Source of the DNA: Nitrospirota bacterium
Lineage (GTDB): Bacteria > Nitrospirota > Nitrospiria > Nitrospirales > Nitrospiraceae
Reading direction: 5' to 3'
Length of the DNA: 45,687 nt
NCBI GenBank assembly: GCA_005887945.1
Contig: VBOL01000167.1
Span: 1 to 45,687 of the forward strand
Shown: one piece after another, positions 3,139 through 21,561 of the stretch
Layout: each line of letters opens with the position of its first letter
Position numbering within the stretch: the first letter of the stretch is position 1
Program-made: the position numbers and the translations under genes
The notes under the pieces: generated by a model
What the model saw: the letters and a program-made list of their open reading frames with translations, nothing else
Database searches by the model: none
Told to the model about the DNA's origin: nothing

Positions 3139-4504
3139 ATGGGTGATCCCAAAGGTTTTATGAAATATGCCCGCGAGGGGCCGAAGCGGCGTCCCGTCGA
3201 GTTGCGCGTGCTTGACTGGAAGGAATTCTACGAGCCGATCTCGGAAGAAAAACTCCAGACCCAAGGGGCGCGTTGCATGGATTGCGGCGTGCCATTTTGC
3301 CAAAGCACGCACGGCTGCCCGGTTGTGAATCTCATTCCGGAGTGGAACGACCTCGTGCACCGTGGCCGCTGGCGCAGTGCGCTCAAGGCGCTGCACACCA
3401 CCAATAACTTCCCGGAATTCACCGGCCGCCTTTGTCCCGCACCCTGCGAATCGGCCTGCGTGCTCGGGATCAACAGCGACCCGGTGTCGATCCGCATCAT
3501 CGAGTGGGGTGGCCATTGTCGGCTCAGGACCGGCCGGTCTCGCCGCTGCGCAGCAACTGGCCCGTGCGGGCCACACCGTGACGCTGTTTGAGAAAGCCGA
3601 CCGGATTGGCGGCTTGCTCCGGTACGGCATCCCCGACTTCAAGATGGAAAAATGGGTCATCGACCGCCGGTTGGAACAGATGCAGGCGGAAGGCGTCATC
3701 TTCAAGACCAACGTCAGTGTCGGCAAGGATATTTCGGGCGAAGAACTACGGCGCGAGTTCGATGCGGTCGGCCTCACCATGGGCGCGGAGCAGGCTCGCG
3801 AGCTGCCGATTCCTGGGCGGGAGCTCAAGGGCATCCACTTGGCGATGGACTATCTGACGCAGCAGAACAAGCGGAACGCCGGCGATACGATTACGGATGA
3901 ACCAATTACGGCGAAGGGCAAGCGCGTCGTCATCATCGGCGGCGGCGATACGGGATCGGACTGTCTCGGCACGACGCACCGGCATGACTGCAGCGAAGTC
4001 CACCAATTCGAATTACTGCCGGAACCGCCGCCGGAGCGAGCCGGCTCGACTCCCTGGCCACTTTGGCCGATGCAACTCCGCACGTCTCATGCGCACGAAG
4101 AAGGCTGCGACCGGCAATGGAGCGTCTCGACCACCAAATTCACCGGCCACAACGGCCACGTCACGAAACTGCATGGGCAGCGGGTGGGCTTTGAGAGCGG
4201 CAAGTTCATGCCGATTCCGAACAGCGACTTCGAAATGGATGTGGATCTCGTTCTCCTCGCAATGGGCTTCACCGGACCGGTGAAGAACGGCCTGCTCGAC
4301 AGCCTCGGCGTGAAGTACGACGTGCGCGGCAATGTCGCGGTGGACGAGAACTTCATGACCAACCTCGACGGCGTCTTTGCCGGCGGCGATACCAAACGCG
4401 GCGCCTCGCTCATCGTCTGGGCCATTGCCGAAGGTAGGAAAATGGCTGCAGGCGTCGATAAGTATCTGCAAGTCGGCAATTCTGCCAAGAAGTTAGTCTC
4501 CTGA
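3139..4504 (+). pseudogene. gltD: glutamate synthase small subunit, disrupted by a deletion/frameshift
   Basis: Beta subunit of glutamate synthase: an NADPH/FAD oxidoreductase that feeds electrons to GltB. The N-terminal part reads in one frame from ATG 3139 ([15 protein letters not shown]) through the Fe-S cysteines ([24 protein letters not shown]) to IRIIEW ending at 3507. The rest reads in a second frame from [17 protein letters not shown] at 3509, through the FAD/NAD folds (GGGDTGSDC; FAGGDTKRGASLIVWAI), to TGA 4502. In GltD proteins roughly 25 residues normally separate these two motifs, so about 75-80 bases that are not a multiple of three appear to be missing. Everything else is well conserved, which suggests a recent deletion or an assembly error. 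No functional product is expected from the sequence as given. Confidence 0.9.
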
Positions 4505-4581
4505 AGTTTCCCTTCGATTAAGTCATAGCCAACCTGGTCAATCCTCTTTGCGCGCGGAACGCGTGGCTTCAGAAGGATGGA

Positions 4582-4678
4582 GAGGGAGTGGCCAGGTGCC
4601 CTTCTTGCTCGCAGAACGCGCACGATGAAACTGTGCTCGTTCGATGCGCGCAGTAAAGGGCAGCCTCGGCCACTCCTC
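4582..4678. repeat. long imperfect inverted repeat downstream of gltD
   Basis: GAGTGGCC (4586-4593) and GCCCTT (4598-4603) pair with AAGGGC (4656-4661) and GGCCACTC (4668-4675), enclosing about 50 bases. No open frame in this 560-base gene-free stretch (4505-5062) looks coding. The element may be a palindromic intergenic repeat or act as a transcript end for the glt operon; there is no clear T-tract. Confidence 0.4.
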
Positions 4679-4739
4679 TAAAGATTGGAAGTGCCCCGCT
4701 CCTTCGGCAAAGCTCGCTCTGAGCCCTAGCACGCCTATT

Positions 4740-4764
4740 GGCGTCTGAAACAGTTCCAGACGCC
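4740..4764. terminator. hairpin, possible weak terminator
   Basis: A perfect 8-base stem GGCGTCTG / CAGACGCC with a 9-base loop lies between gltD and the cassette array. No T-run follows on either strand, so a terminator role is only a possibility. Confidence 0.3.
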
Positions 4765-4930
4765 ATTCGAATCTCTACACGCATGTTCTGAATCGAGGAG
4801 GACGCGGTGCGTGCAGCTCCGCAGACTGGTTAGGATTGGGCAAACTGTGCGTCCCCGCCAGGCAGAAATAGGCTGCGGGCCAATAGGGAGATAGGCCGCG
4901 CGAATGGCAGTGTATTCTTGTGGGCGGTTA

Positions 4931-4959
4931 TTGACACAGATCCTCGAAATGCAGATGAT
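4931..4959 (+). promoter_or_regulatory. possible sigma-70 promoter upstream of the cassette array
   Basis: TTGACA (4931-4936) is followed after 17 bases by GATGAT (4954-4959), which keeps four of six -10 consensus bases. It lies about 85 bases before the first cassette boundary and points into it, where a cassette promoter would be expected. The weak -10 makes this tentative. Confidence 0.3.
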
Positions 4960-5062
4960 CTCAGGACTTTTCAGTCACCAGAGTTCTGGTACGGTCAGGG
5001 ATAGGCTGCCTGTAGCCATGTCCTTGCCGCCGCTCACTTAATATTTAGGCAACAAGAGTCCC

Positions 5063-5794
5063 ATGAGTCCAGAGGCACGTTTTGAGAGAGAACTCGAACA
5101 ACTGCGTCACGACAGTAATGAAGCCATTCAGTTCCTTTATGCGTGGATCTCATTTCACGCCTGTGCAGGAATAAACGCCAAAATACGTCGAGGTATCAAT
5201 CTCACGCCACTATTTTGGAACACAAGCTTAGGTGCGCTTCAGACCTCCTTGTTCATTGCTCTCGGTCGCATATTCGATCGAAACCCCAAGAGCCACAGCC
5301 TCGATCGTCTTCTTCGGGAAGCCATACAGCATCCAACAATCTTCTCGAAGACGGCCCTGGCAAAGCGGAAAGCAAAACAGTCTCCAGCGGCTACTTGGAT
5401 AAATGACTACGTCAAGGACGCGCACATACCGAGTAGAACGGATTTCCGACGCCTACAGCGGTACGCGAAGAAGAAGAGAACGGTTTACGAAAAGGCATAC
5501 GAGAAGATTCGACACAAGATCTTTGCACATAGTGGTGTCGTTTTTCGGCAGAAATCTGATGAGCTGTTTTCCAAGACAAACGTTCATGAGTTGCAGCGAC
5601 TTGTACTATCCCTGAATGAACTGCACGAAGCGCTGTGGCAACTTTATATCAATGGCCGCAGGCCAGTCTTCCGGAGAATCGTATACACAGTTGCGGCCTT
5701 GCGACGTAGAGCATCAAAGAGTGATCGTCACATCCCGTCGGTGCAGGAAAGTATCGTAAAGGAAGCTTTCGATGTTCTTGCCCTTTACAAATAG
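5063..5794 (+). CDS. cassette-encoded HEPN/AbiU2-like protein
   Basis: A mostly helical 243-residue protein with no signal peptide. Residues 147-158 read EKIRHKIFAHSG, containing R150-x5-H156, the R-x(4-6)-H signature of HEPN domains, many of which are RNases in toxin-antitoxin, abortive-infection and CRISPR systems. The preceding long helices and the (R/K)H-K-x-x-A-H-S style resemble AbiU2-type HEPN proteins. The family call is by motif and overall pattern and was not searched. ATG 5063 lies 18 bases inside the cassette boundary, and the weak AAGAG upstream is the only ribosome-binding candidate. The stop at 5792 is followed almost immediately by attC. Its cassette location implies acquisition by integron recombination. 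Nuclease or defence activity is inference; no antitoxin partner is visible in the same cassette. Confidence 0.75.
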   Translation: MSPEARFERELEQLRHDSNEAIQFLYAWISFHACAGINAKIRRGINLTPLFWNTSLGALQTSLFIALGRIFDRNPKSHSLDRLLREAIQHPTIFSKTALAKRKAKQSPAATWINDYVKDAHIPSRTDFRRLQRYAKKKRTVYEKAYEKIRHKIFAHSGVVFRQKSDELFSKTNVHELQRLVLSLNELHEALWQLYINGRRPVFRRIVYTVAALRRRASKSDRHIPSVQESIVKEAFDVLALYK

Positions 5795-5797
5795 CAC

Positions 5798-5860
5798 GCC
5801 CAACAAACCGCTGCACGCGACCGCGTTAAGAAACGCGGCGCGTGAGCGGTAGTGTTAGGC
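5798..5860 (+). other. attC: attC recombination site of cassette 1
   Basis: R'' box GCCCAAC (5798-5804) and R' box GTTAGGC (5854-5860) bracket an imperfect palindrome. The left arm ACCGCTgCACGCGaCCGCG matches the complement of the right arm ACCGCTCACGCGCCGCG apart from two extra unpaired bases. Such extrahelical bases are the structural hallmark that directs single-strand cassette recombination. The loop is about 8 bases (TTAAGAAA). At 63 bases it is a typical short attC. Confidence 0.88.
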
Positions 5861-5885
5861 AGCGTGTAAAGAGAGGTCGCGAAAA

Positions 5886-6440
5886 ATGGCAGACGCTGAC
5901 ACCCGCGTTCGAATTTGGAACAGCTTCTTCAAACTCGCATGGAGTGAGGCGAAGCATTGCTTTGAACTCGATCACAATTGCCAAAGCGATTCAGAGTTCG
6001 AGCCGATTCTTGGAAGTACGCTGTTGCCCGAACAGCATCACTGCCTCGCCGCAATCACGCTCTGCGCGCTCGCCATCGAGGCTCGGGCAAATCACCTGAT
6101 AGACGAGCTCATTGAGAACGGGCTCAGCGCTGACACGGGTCGCGCTGCAAAGTGGCTTCCTCCAAAGGAGAAGTGGTTCTTGTTGCCCAGTCTTGCGGGG
6201 AAGACTGCCAAACTTAGCTCCGCGTCGCAACCGCACCAAGCGATCGCGCAGATCTGCGATCTGAGGAATGACATCATGCATGTCAAGTTTGACGAAATTG
6301 CCAAGAAACTTCCCGCCGTGGGAACGGTCGAGGGATACTTTCGCGGTTTCGTCGCCGCAATGGAAGACATGAACATCGCTCTCGGCCGGGACATAACATC
6401 ACCCCGACCGGAAGTCCTTTCGAAGGGAAAGTTTGCGTGA
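5886..6440 (+). CDS. cassette-encoded HEPN-like protein with RNxxxH motif
   Basis: A 184-residue helical protein without signal peptide. Residues 126-133 read LRNDIMHV: R127-N128-x3-H132 is the classical RNxxxH active-site motif of HEPN nucleases. Upstream helices (about 15-75) include an acidic, aromatic N-terminal helix and a stretch ALAIEARANHLIDELIE that resembles the core helix of hypothetical HEPN-like proteins. A ribosome-binding site GAGAGG lies about 10 bases before ATG 5886, and the stop is 10 bases before attC. The gene fills cassette 2 and is unrelated in sequence to the cassette 1 protein apart from the motif. RNA cleavage or stress/phage defence is a family-based inference; binding-only HEPN proteins also exist. 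Confidence 0.75.
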   Translation: MADADTRVRIWNSFFKLAWSEAKHCFELDHNCQSDSEFEPILGSTLLPEQHHCLAAITLCALAIEARANHLIDELIENGLSADTGRAAKWLPPKEKWFLLPSLAGKTAKLSSASQPHQAIAQICDLRNDIMHVKFDEIAKKLPAVGTVEGYFRGFVAAMEDMNIALGRDITSPRPEVLSKGKFA

Positions 6441-6450
6441 AAGTAAAGCT

Positions 6451-6525
6451 GCCTAACAACGCGGCGCAGTCGGACCGCCTCCAGCGCTGTGCGCTTCCGG
6501 CGGCCGCTGGCCGCGAACGTTAAAC
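6451..6525 (+). other. attC: attC recombination site of cassette 2
   Basis: R'' GCCTAAC (6451-6457) and R' GTTAAAC (6519-6525) enclose a 75-base imperfect palindrome. The left arm CGCGGCgCAGtCGGaCCGCC pairs with the complement CGCGGCCAGCGGCCGCC, leaving three extrahelical bases. The mismatch between the two boxes shows that TTAAAC belongs to whatever follows the array. Confidence 0.85.
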
Positions 6526-6599
6526 CCGCAAATGTGTATGTAAGACTGGCGCTCGGCAAAGAATAGGTTCCAGCAAAGAAAAGAATTCACGAACCGTTG

Positions 6600-6815
6600 A
6601 TTGCTCCGAGCGCAGACATGCTGCCGCGCGACCTCACCGGAGGAACGGGGACCCACCGAGGCTTGGCGGAGTAGGAAAGCTGGAACTGACTGAAGCACTG
6701 CGATCGAAGGATCGCGGCTGAAGGAATTCCAGAAGGCTTCCACTCGGCCAAGCCCGGAAGGGTCGTTCCGGGAGGTGGGGCGCAGCGGTGGCATGCCAGC
6801 GCTCGTTGTCCCTCC
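6600..6815 (+). other. hairpin-rich non-coding stretch after the cassette array
   Basis: The gap 6526-6874 has no convincing gene but holds successive stem-loops: GCGATC/GATCGC (6700-6715), CCCGGAA/TTCCGGG with a 6-base loop (6753-6772), and GGAGG/CCTCC (6771-6775 with 6811-6815) enclosing AGCG/CGCT around a TGGCATGCCA palindrome. It could be a structured RNA, a palindromic repeat or the leader of the downstream DUF5069 gene. No known riboswitch core was recognised. Confidence 0.3.
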
Positions 6816-6874
6816 TAGACTTTTCTCGTCTTCGTCTGTATGTTTCGAGAAATTGCGACGCTGGAGAAAACTGA

Positions 6875-7246
6875 ATGACGCAACAAACTTATCCCAGAAG
6901 CCCCAAAGCCTTGCTCGGTGGCATGGCCCACCTTGGGCGGTTTATCGACAAGATTCGCCTGCGGCATGCGGGCAAGATTCAGGACTACAACTACATCACA
7001 GTGGGGTTCGATAAGTACCTGGTCGATTTTCTGCAGATCGATCCGAAATCGTTTGAGCAGCGGGTGTTGGCCGGGGGAACGGATGATGAACTTCTCGCCT
7101 GGGTGAAAGCCAACAGTCGAAACCCGTCTGACCAAGAGATCGCGCAATGGAGCCAGGGCCTTCTGGCCTCCGGCGTGCCGGTCGCATCTCTCCCTCTTGT
7201 TCAGACCTGGGCTGACGTCATAGAACTCGACGAAGAGCGGCTGTAG
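6875..7246 (+). CDS. DUF5069 domain-containing protein
   Basis: A 123-residue cytoplasmic protein of unknown function. The pattern YPRSPKALLGGMAHLGRFIDK, followed by AGKIQDYNY, the D-K-Y-L-V-D-F-L block and a C-terminal region resembling DELLAWVK, matches the DUF5069 family. ATG 6875 is preceded by a purine-rich CTGGAGAA. It lies about 350 bases after the integron array and is followed by a hairpin at 7259-7300. The family has no assigned reaction, and context gives no further clue. Confidence 0.8.
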   Translation: MTQQTYPRSPKALLGGMAHLGRFIDKIRLRHAGKIQDYNYITVGFDKYLVDFLQIDPKSFEQRVLAGGTDDELLAWVKANSRNPSDQEIAQWSQGLLASGVPVASLPLVQTWADVIELDEERL

Positions 7247-20567: not shown

Positions 20568-20605
20568 AACCCTGTTGGGGTGTCAAGGTAAACCCCCACA
20601 GGGTT
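20568..20605. promoter_or_regulatory. inverted repeat between divergent genes
   Basis: AACCCTGTtGGGGT (20568-20581) pairs with ACCCCcACAGGGTT (ending 20605), one mismatch in 14, around a short loop. It lies between the divergent LpoA-like and xer genes, so it may be an operator acting on both or a small palindromic repeat. No T-run makes it a terminator. Confidence 0.4.
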
Positions 20606-20643
20606 CGTTGTGTTCATCTGAGCGATTGGCTATCATCGCACAA

Positions 20644-21561
20644 ATGATGCTACACCCGCTGGCCGAACGATATTTGAGCCATCTCCGGGTGGAGGGTGGT
20701 CTCTCCATCAACACGGTCGAAGCCTACCGCCGAGACTTGAGTAAATTCCACTCCTACTTGGATCGAATCGGTGTCGTGCCGCTCGGACCTCTTACGCCGG
20801 AGACGTTGACGGGATTTCTCCGCTCCTTGCACGAGGCACGGCTGTCTCGCGCCTCCTCTGTGCGCTGCCTCTCGGCTATTCGTGGATGGCTCCGGTTTCT
20901 GATGCGGGAACAGATGATTGAGGAGAATCCGACCATTGGCCTGGCCCCGATATCACGAGGCGTTCGACTACCCAAAACGTTGTCGCAGCAAGACGTCATC
21001 GCATTGTTGGACCTGGGGGCGGTCCCGACCCCTGAAGACCTGCGTGACCGCGCGATGGTGGAGTTGCTCTATGCGACGGGGCTTCGCGTATCAGAATTGG
21101 TGATGGCTGAAGTCGCGCAGGCAAATCTTGATGTCGGGTATCTTCGGGTCAAGGGCAAGGGTGCGAAGCAGCGTCTTGTGCCGATGGGTGAGGGGGCCCG
21201 GCAGCTGCTGCAGCAGTATGTGGAAGAGGCACGGCCACGGCTTCTCAAGGAACGGGCTTCACGATATGTCTTCGTTTCGAGGCGGGGTGGGCCGTTGACG
21301 CGGCAAGCCTTTTGGAAATTGCTGCGACGCCGTGCACGGCGAGCAGGGATTACACAGGTCATTTCGCCTCACATGCTCCGGCATTCGTTTGCGACGCATC
21401 TGCTCGAAGGCGGTGCGGATCTTCGGTCTGTTCAGGTGATGCTCGGCCATGCGAATATTGCGACGACGCAGATTTACACGCATATTGAACGGGGACGCCT
21501 CAAGCGGGTACATGACAGGTATTTCCCTCGGGTGGGTCGGCGGCGGGGGCAAAAAACATAG
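20644..21561 (+). CDS. xerD: tyrosine recombinase XerD/XerC
   Basis: A 305-residue site-specific tyrosine recombinase that resolves chromosome dimers at dif during division. It has an N-terminal SAM-like DNA-binding domain (YLSHLRVEGGLSINTVEAYRRDL) and a catalytic domain with Arg in ATGLRVSELV, Lys in KGKGAKQR, H-x-x-R in HMLRHSFATHLLEGG, the second His in MLGHANI and the Tyr nucleophile in TQIYTH. The length, lack of extra domains and housekeeping neighbourhood favour Xer over a phage or integron integrase. XerD versus XerC cannot be settled here. Start ATG 20644 (followed by ATG 20647) gives the usual N-terminus; a longer in-frame extension overlaps the upstream inverted repeat. Confidence 0.92.
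   Translation: MMLHPLAERYLSHLRVEGGLSINTVEAYRRDLSKFHSYLDRIGVVPLGPLTPETLTGFLRSLHEARLSRASSVRCLSAIRGWLRFLMREQMIEENPTIGLAPISRGVRLPKTLSQQDVIALLDLGAVPTPEDLRDRAMVELLYATGLRVSELVMAEVAQANLDVGYLRVKGKGAKQRLVPMGEGARQLLQQYVEEARPRLLKERASRYVFVSRRGGPLTRQAFWKLLRRRARRAGITQVISPHMLRHSFATHLLEGGADLRSVQVMLGHANIATTQIYTHIERGRLKRVHDRYFPRVGRRRGQKT

Follow-up and report, generated by a model that had tools for sequence, protein, structure and literature searches.

In a stretch of 45,687 nucleotides from a Nitrospirota bacterium (GenBank assembly GCA_005887945.1, contig VBOL01000167.1), which we refer to as "the window", two gene cassettes are located between a gltD-like gene and a DUF5069 gene. Our comparison with related genomes indicates that this array is very probably the decayed local representative of a sedentary chromosomal integron platform, fixed between these two genes across a genus that, by its inferred name, is Nitrospira-like. 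The evidence is found in the attC sites and the cassette boundaries, in the junctions at attI and at the right end of the array, in the cassettes that differ from species to species, and in the integrase gene intI, which is intact in two relatives and present as a local relic in the window. According to the explanation that we favour, the integrase IntI, whose gene shared the strand of the cassettes and was read toward attI, would formerly have inserted one-gene cassettes at attI; in the lineage of the window, intI would then have been eroded to its 3' end and the crossover base of attI would have mutated, leaving behind two cassettes that are probably still transcribed from a conserved promoter of the attI region.

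The attC sites and the edges of the array

An earlier note, made from the letters of the window, had described two attC sites with inverse R boxes and extrahelical bases that follow two small genes, and had proposed a check of the region with an attC covariance model. We have trained such a model (R1) on 17 attC sites, all from related genomes, with the window left out; the training sites were aligned in shortened form, with their central loops trimmed, and the attC structure was fixed with two extrahelical bases. Within the training sites, the attC pairs covary (a score of 0.311 versus 0.125 ± 0.019 for shuffles), and the paired cells of the alignment amount to 77%, versus 24–41% in slid controls; both kinds of control are biased toward the attC structure, because the structure was drawn from the same sequences. 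The independent test of the model is the window: searched across its full 45.7 kb with the filters off, R1 returned exactly two matches, both on the sense strand and both at the sites described (Table 1), while the next-best score, 12.9 bits, belongs to the reverse strand of the first site. A search of the window against Rfam gave no match to an attC family. A hand-made attC scorer picked up both sites of the window as well, was noisy in the relatives and gave way to the covariance model.

The R boxes are GCCCAAC/GTTAGGC in the first site and GCCTAAC/GTTAAAC in the second, and each site contains two extrahelical bases (G and A), located at positions that match those in the sites of the relatives. 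In both sites, folding is slightly more stable for the bottom strand than for the top strand (−29.5 versus −28.4 kcal/mol in the first, −27.1 versus −25.6 kcal/mol in the second), as is expected of attC. The pair has the make-up of a cluster of attC sites lacking integron-integrases (CALIN): R boxes, extrahelical bases and bottom-strand folding are present, and the two R1 matches are spaced 590 bp apart, where a CALIN is defined by at least two close attC sites. Since hairpins are common at the ends of bacterial genes, one could suppose that the two sites are terminator-like hairpins and that the genes before them are ordinary chromosomal genes; we regard this as extremely improbable, as the E-values of R1, the conserved extrahelical bases, the bias toward the sense strand and the exact junctions of the flanks all contradict plain hairpins, and R1 is specific, six genomes of the genus being without an attC site at E ≤ 0.01.

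Each attC site closes a cassette with a single intact open reading frame (ORF), and the two ORFs have the same sense. The start of cassette 2 (GTTAGGC, 5854) pairs without a mismatch with the R'' box of the same cassette (GCCTAAC, 6451), a classical cassette signature. The window contains two consecutive, genuine integron gene cassettes, as had been claimed; the edges of the array, i.e. the crossovers after 5044 and after 6519, had been overlooked.

Table 1. Features of the cassette array, of its flanks and of the two anchor genes, with positions in the window.
Feature	Position	Strand	Observations
gltD-like gene (glutamate synthase small subunit), left anchor	3362–4504	+	79–84% DNA identity at the same place in same-genus and same-family relatives
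intI relic, last 28 codons, catalytic Tyr segment YTHVLNRGGRG	4749–4832	+ (cassette strand)	tblastn E 1.1e-4 to the IntI of G019
attI region, core TTTAGGC at 5044–5050	about 4859–5050	+	alignment of 10 species; homology stops at the left junction
Candidate cassette promoter TTGACA-N17-GATGAT	4931–4959	+	both hexamers invariant in 10/10 species
Gene cassette 1 (810 bp)	5045–5854	+	attI crossover to attC1 crossover
HEPN_AbiU2 protein (protein 1), 243 aa, R150-x5-H156	5063–5794	+	Pfam PF18734 E 3.6e-23
attC of cassette 1	5798–5860	+	R1 43.7 bits, E 2.8e-8; fold z −8.4
Gene cassette 2 (665 bp)	5855–6519	+	attC1 crossover to attC2 crossover; start complementary to own R'' box
Candidate HEPN protein (protein 2), 184 aa, R127-N128-x3-H132	5886–6440	+	motif read directly; kept in L083
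attC of cassette 2	6451–6525	+	R1 47.2 bits, E 4.1e-9; fold z −4.1; R' box GTTAAAC joins the chromosomal right flank
Conserved right flank	6520–6662	+	87–94% identical in the nine same-genus relatives that retain it (77% in G019); starts exactly at the crossover
DUF5069 gene, right anchor	6875–7246	+	Pfam PF16798 E 1.2e-37; same neighbour in relatives

The integron platform at the gltD locus

The DNA of the region has been searched against 60 relatives, and the cassettes between the flanks are not shared: DNA of cassette 1 or 2 occurs at the same locus in 0/60. The homology of the left flank ends at about 5048–5054, and that of the right flank resumes at 6518, or about 25 bases earlier where the last attC site is shared as well. 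In the alignments, the breaks occur at AATAG/TTRG on the left and at G/TTAAACCCGCAAATGTG on the right (the slash marks the break), which is the integron crossover, and different genes are located between identical junctions in different species. One of these alignments leaves L033 out of account, which had been entered there on the wrong strand. The same genes at fixed, non-integron positions in related genomes, which had been named as evidence against an integron, are not what is found here: the position is fixed and the genes differ.

To the left of the array, a single open frame runs through the segment of the catalytic tyrosine of an intI relic. The relic scores 76, and the best of 400 dinucleotide shuffles reaches 57; in 75 control blocks of real DNA, one block scored 76, which contains the relic itself, and the next best scored 48. 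Five other species (L036, L037, L040, L042 and L043) have comparable relics at this locus, and intact intI genes, above the NCBIfam cut-off (TIGR02249), are located there in G016 and G019, on the same strand as the cassettes and transcribed toward attI; the two intact IntI proteins are only 57% identical. In one of the five species (G017, L043), the relic is embedded in the array, on the right-hand side of the left attI; this looks like a stacking of two integrons, and more than one integron may therefore have left remnants at the locus.

The array had been called integrase-less in the earlier note, which is accurate insofar as an intI gene above the TIGR02249 cut-off is absent from the window's genome (a draft of 366 contigs, 92.6% complete), where relics are all that the proposed search for intI elsewhere has brought up. 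What does not hold is the picture of a stray array: the cassettes belong to a genus-wide fixed platform, whose intI stub and attI had been overlooked. Compared with a complete sedentary chromosomal integron, the window has the attI at a conserved chromosomal position and lacks the functional intI beside it. The crossover base of attI is also changed, with T at 5044 in the window where the relatives have GTTAG; the crossover G is lost in 2/10 species, namely the window and G030.

The array looks frozen. The contrary explanation, that cassettes still move at attI through an IntI supplied in trans by another locus or another cell, draws on the complete replacement of cassettes between species at one site, on the intact attC cores of the window and on the other attI-like and attC sites that are scattered through the window's genome; it is nevertheless unlikely, given that intI above the cut-off is missing from this genome and present in 2/32 genomes of the genus, and that the window and G030 have lost the crossover G.

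The left anchor is a gene that we take to be gltD, a name recognised from the sequence rather than from a profile; it is split into two overlapping frames (ORFs 3139–3591 and 3362–4504), owing to a frameshift, to a small deletion or to an error in the assembly. A tyrosine recombinase gene at 20575–21561, located directly upstream of tRNA-Val and tRNA-Asp genes, has been considered as intI and rejected: it looks XerD-like and is weak against the IntI profile.

The conserved flanks and the candidate promoter

The attI region of the window is 89–95% identical to that of nine other species, versus 80–83% for the coding DNA of gltD, and the mean divergence between species is 0.084 for attI versus 0.163 for gltD; the distances of the attI flank and of gltD are uncorrelated, in a Mantel test that is uninformative. 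As both flanks are more alike between species than gltD, with uncorrelated distances, homologous recombination between species, involving the entire locus with its flanks, might have brought in the cassettes in place of local capture in an integron. We give this a slim chance: left and right, the breakpoints fall on the crossover base of the integron, the cassettes differ by species, and intI or its relic is present at the site; an exchange of the locus may add to integron capture, and does not replace it.

The conserved attI region contains a candidate promoter, from which the cassettes are probably transcribed. The promoter-like block is kept in 10/10 species although two of them have lost the crossover G, a pattern that fits selection for expression over recombination, but to which lateral exchange of the locus may also contribute.

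Several points count against the decayed platform as we describe it. The intI relic is short, at 28 codons, and an intact intI could be missed, because the draft genome is incomplete and fragmented. The low divergence of the attI flank could reflect an exchange of the locus between species. Finally, a promoter scan of 4480–6900 gave one promoter-like site, which is no excess over chance.

Two families of repeats are located near the array. A repeat of about 145 bp occurs at 4541–4685, with about 90% identity across the genus and several copies per genome (e.g. on contigs C157, C280 and C8 of G000), while a second family occurs to the right of the array, at 6604–6860, pieces of which are scattered over several places in the relatives, in either orientation.

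The proteins encoded by the cassettes

AbiU2 proteins are associated with abortive infection, and protein 1 matches the HEPN_AbiU2 profile at 82.5 bits, where the curated cut-off is 26.8. The AbiU2-like motif R150-x5-H156, which had been pointed out from the sequence, is in place, and both of its residues are invariant in 25/25 aligned sequences, giving the conserved R-x4-6-H arrangement. In a genome-wide scan, 25 relatives of protein 1 have been found in Burkholderiaceae, Acidobacteria, Thermodesulfobacteriota, Gammaproteobacteria, Planctomycetota, Nitrospirae, Nitrobacter and others; relatives also occur in five conjugative plasmid records, and none were found in viral contigs.

Several of the AbiU2 homologues are themselves followed by attC sites. 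An R1 match is located directly downstream, on the same strand, in L133, L135, L139 and L150; the sites downstream in L136, L138 and L140 are weaker, and in L134 sites flank the homologue. All of the listed R1 matches near these AbiU2 homologues (16/16) are on the strand of the homologue. An attC site also follows the AbiU2 gene of the same-genus genome G011 (L122, 1460–1537). Because attC sites accompany its homologues in several phyla, AbiU2 is a recurrent cassette gene of integrons in these phyla. In G011, the AbiU2 ORF extends into its own attC, with the tail PNPSIERTSSSGLRPLPAAAHVKR.

The AlphaFold model of protein 1 is confident and all-helical, with a predicted local distance difference test score (pLDDT) of 87.7. 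A fold search with this model against the PDB gave no significant match, including none to a solved HEPN structure, which weighs against the assignment; what carries the assignment is therefore the profile, together with the motif and the family as described in the literature (PMC3710099). Protein 1 is probably an RNA-cutting HEPN ribonuclease that acts through R150 and H156, and its predicted role is most likely abortive infection or dormancy.

Protein 2 has the motif R127-N128-x3-H132 at the position where it had been reported, and, again as reported, the two products are otherwise unrelated, with neither a sequence match nor a profile-profile match between them. Searches of protein 2 against Pfam and NCBIfam gave no match, and its best profile signal is the CARF-HEPN model of PADLOC (E 0.03). 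One relative has been found among 396 genomes of the phylum (L083, about 28% identity), and none in plasmids, phages, viral contigs or genome contigs.

It is rather likely that protein 2 is a HEPN protein. The relative L083, a sample of one, keeps the Arg, Asn and His of RNxxxH together with an Ala-Ile-Glu of the second helix, and in the model the third long helix ends in the motif, in keeping with the topology of HEPN domains (PMC3710099). Alternatively, protein 2 could be an unrelated helical protein in which RNxxxH occurs by chance, which we hold to be a lesser possibility. In favour of chance, there is no profile match, the structure model is poor (pLDDT 51.7), and the best matches of the fold search, although they include HEPN toxins, are all non-significant at E ≥ 0.35; against it stand the residues retained in L083 and the position of the motif. 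The claim of two HEPN proteins, made in the earlier note, consequently stands for protein 1 through its profile, whereas for protein 2 a HEPN ribonuclease is plausible from the motif and the fitting topology.

Other integron traces and cassettes of the genus

The genome of the window contains eight attC sites in total, as found by R1, attI-like sequences on contigs C114, C245 and C351, and two further intI relics. These relics of the 3' end of intI (L119 on contig C53 and L121 on contig C317), as well as a relic in another genome (L107, G004:C192), are each followed by a downstream attC on the same strand; these genomes therefore contain several decayed integrons at different loci. An attI-like motif, GC(A/T)GC..ACTTAATAGTTAG, occurs at many other loci (L100, L101 and L102–L114), with a different sequence after each, and these loci are divided into several families by their upstream sequence.

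In other species, the gltD site carries a HEPN_AbiV protein (G030; Pfam E 1.7e-15, PADLOC AbiV E 9e-5), a Schlafen AlbA_2 protein (G023) and an HNH endonuclease (G026). The cassettes of G012, G006, G028 and G017 are HEPN-like by eye and have no Pfam match; they are possibly further HEPN-like cassettes of the site. With AbiU2, AbiV, Schlafen and HNH cassettes at one position, the site often carries predicted nucleic-acid-targeting proteins. We tentatively consider, as a possibility that we would not favour at present, that the gltD site has turned into a place of expression for predicted defence proteins that target RNA or DNA, where selection would keep the promoter, the attI flank and the remaining cassettes after the loss of the integrase.

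Comparison with known systems

For this phylum, the IntegronFinder 2.0 study (PMC9024848) lists CALINs, two of them in Candidatus Nitrospira inopinata, and no complete integron. The array of the window resembles these elements in that it has two attC sites and no working intI nearby, in the same phylum; it differs in that the ancestral platform has been identified, through the fixed locus, attI, the intI relic and the intact intI of two relatives. The loss of a chromosomal intI with leftover cassettes has been documented in Xanthomonas, where the platform is located downstream of ilvD (PMC12444791) and where, likewise, one ancestral genus-wide site undergoes progressive loss of intI; in our case, the phylum is another, the neighbour is gltD, intI is directed toward attI, the arrays are far shorter, and the decay has advanced to a 3' stub. 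In Treponema (PMC3607928), intI is also on the cassette strand and has been lost in one species, with cassette remnants; the present system differs in its short arrays and in the several integron relics per genome.

HEPN proteins encoded by cassettes have been known since 2013, together with the hypothesis that they are dormancy ribonucleases (PMC3710099). Protein 1 resembles the integron cassette HEPN family (PDB 3jrt) and the AbiU2 HEPN family of that study in being a cassette-encoded HEPN protein to which the hypothesis of a dormancy or defence ribonuclease applies. The settings listed there for AbiU2 are Sel1-repeat genes and restriction-modification operons, and cassettes are not among them; no sequence match to the 3jrt family was found, protein 1 being an AbiU2. 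Sedentary chromosomal integrons have also been described as antiphage biobanks (Darracq et al. 2025); as far as that work is represented in PMC12409362, where it is cited, the likeness lies in single-gene cassettes and predicted defence proteins, and the difference in the tiny, apparently frozen array of the window and in a defence role that is predicted.

HEPN cassettes and decayed chromosomal integrons are of a kind that is already known, and the window is a well-resolved new case of it. As far as the literature covered shows, the new elements are a fixed platform with intact and relic states of intI within one genus, and AbiU2 as a cassette in several phyla. The locus gives a clear series from intact to relic at a single position, by which the isolated attC clusters of a nitrifier-like lineage are explained as fossils of a genus-wide integron; and because AbiU2 is a recurrent cassette in several phyla, its suspected role in phage defence is directly testable from natural cassettes.
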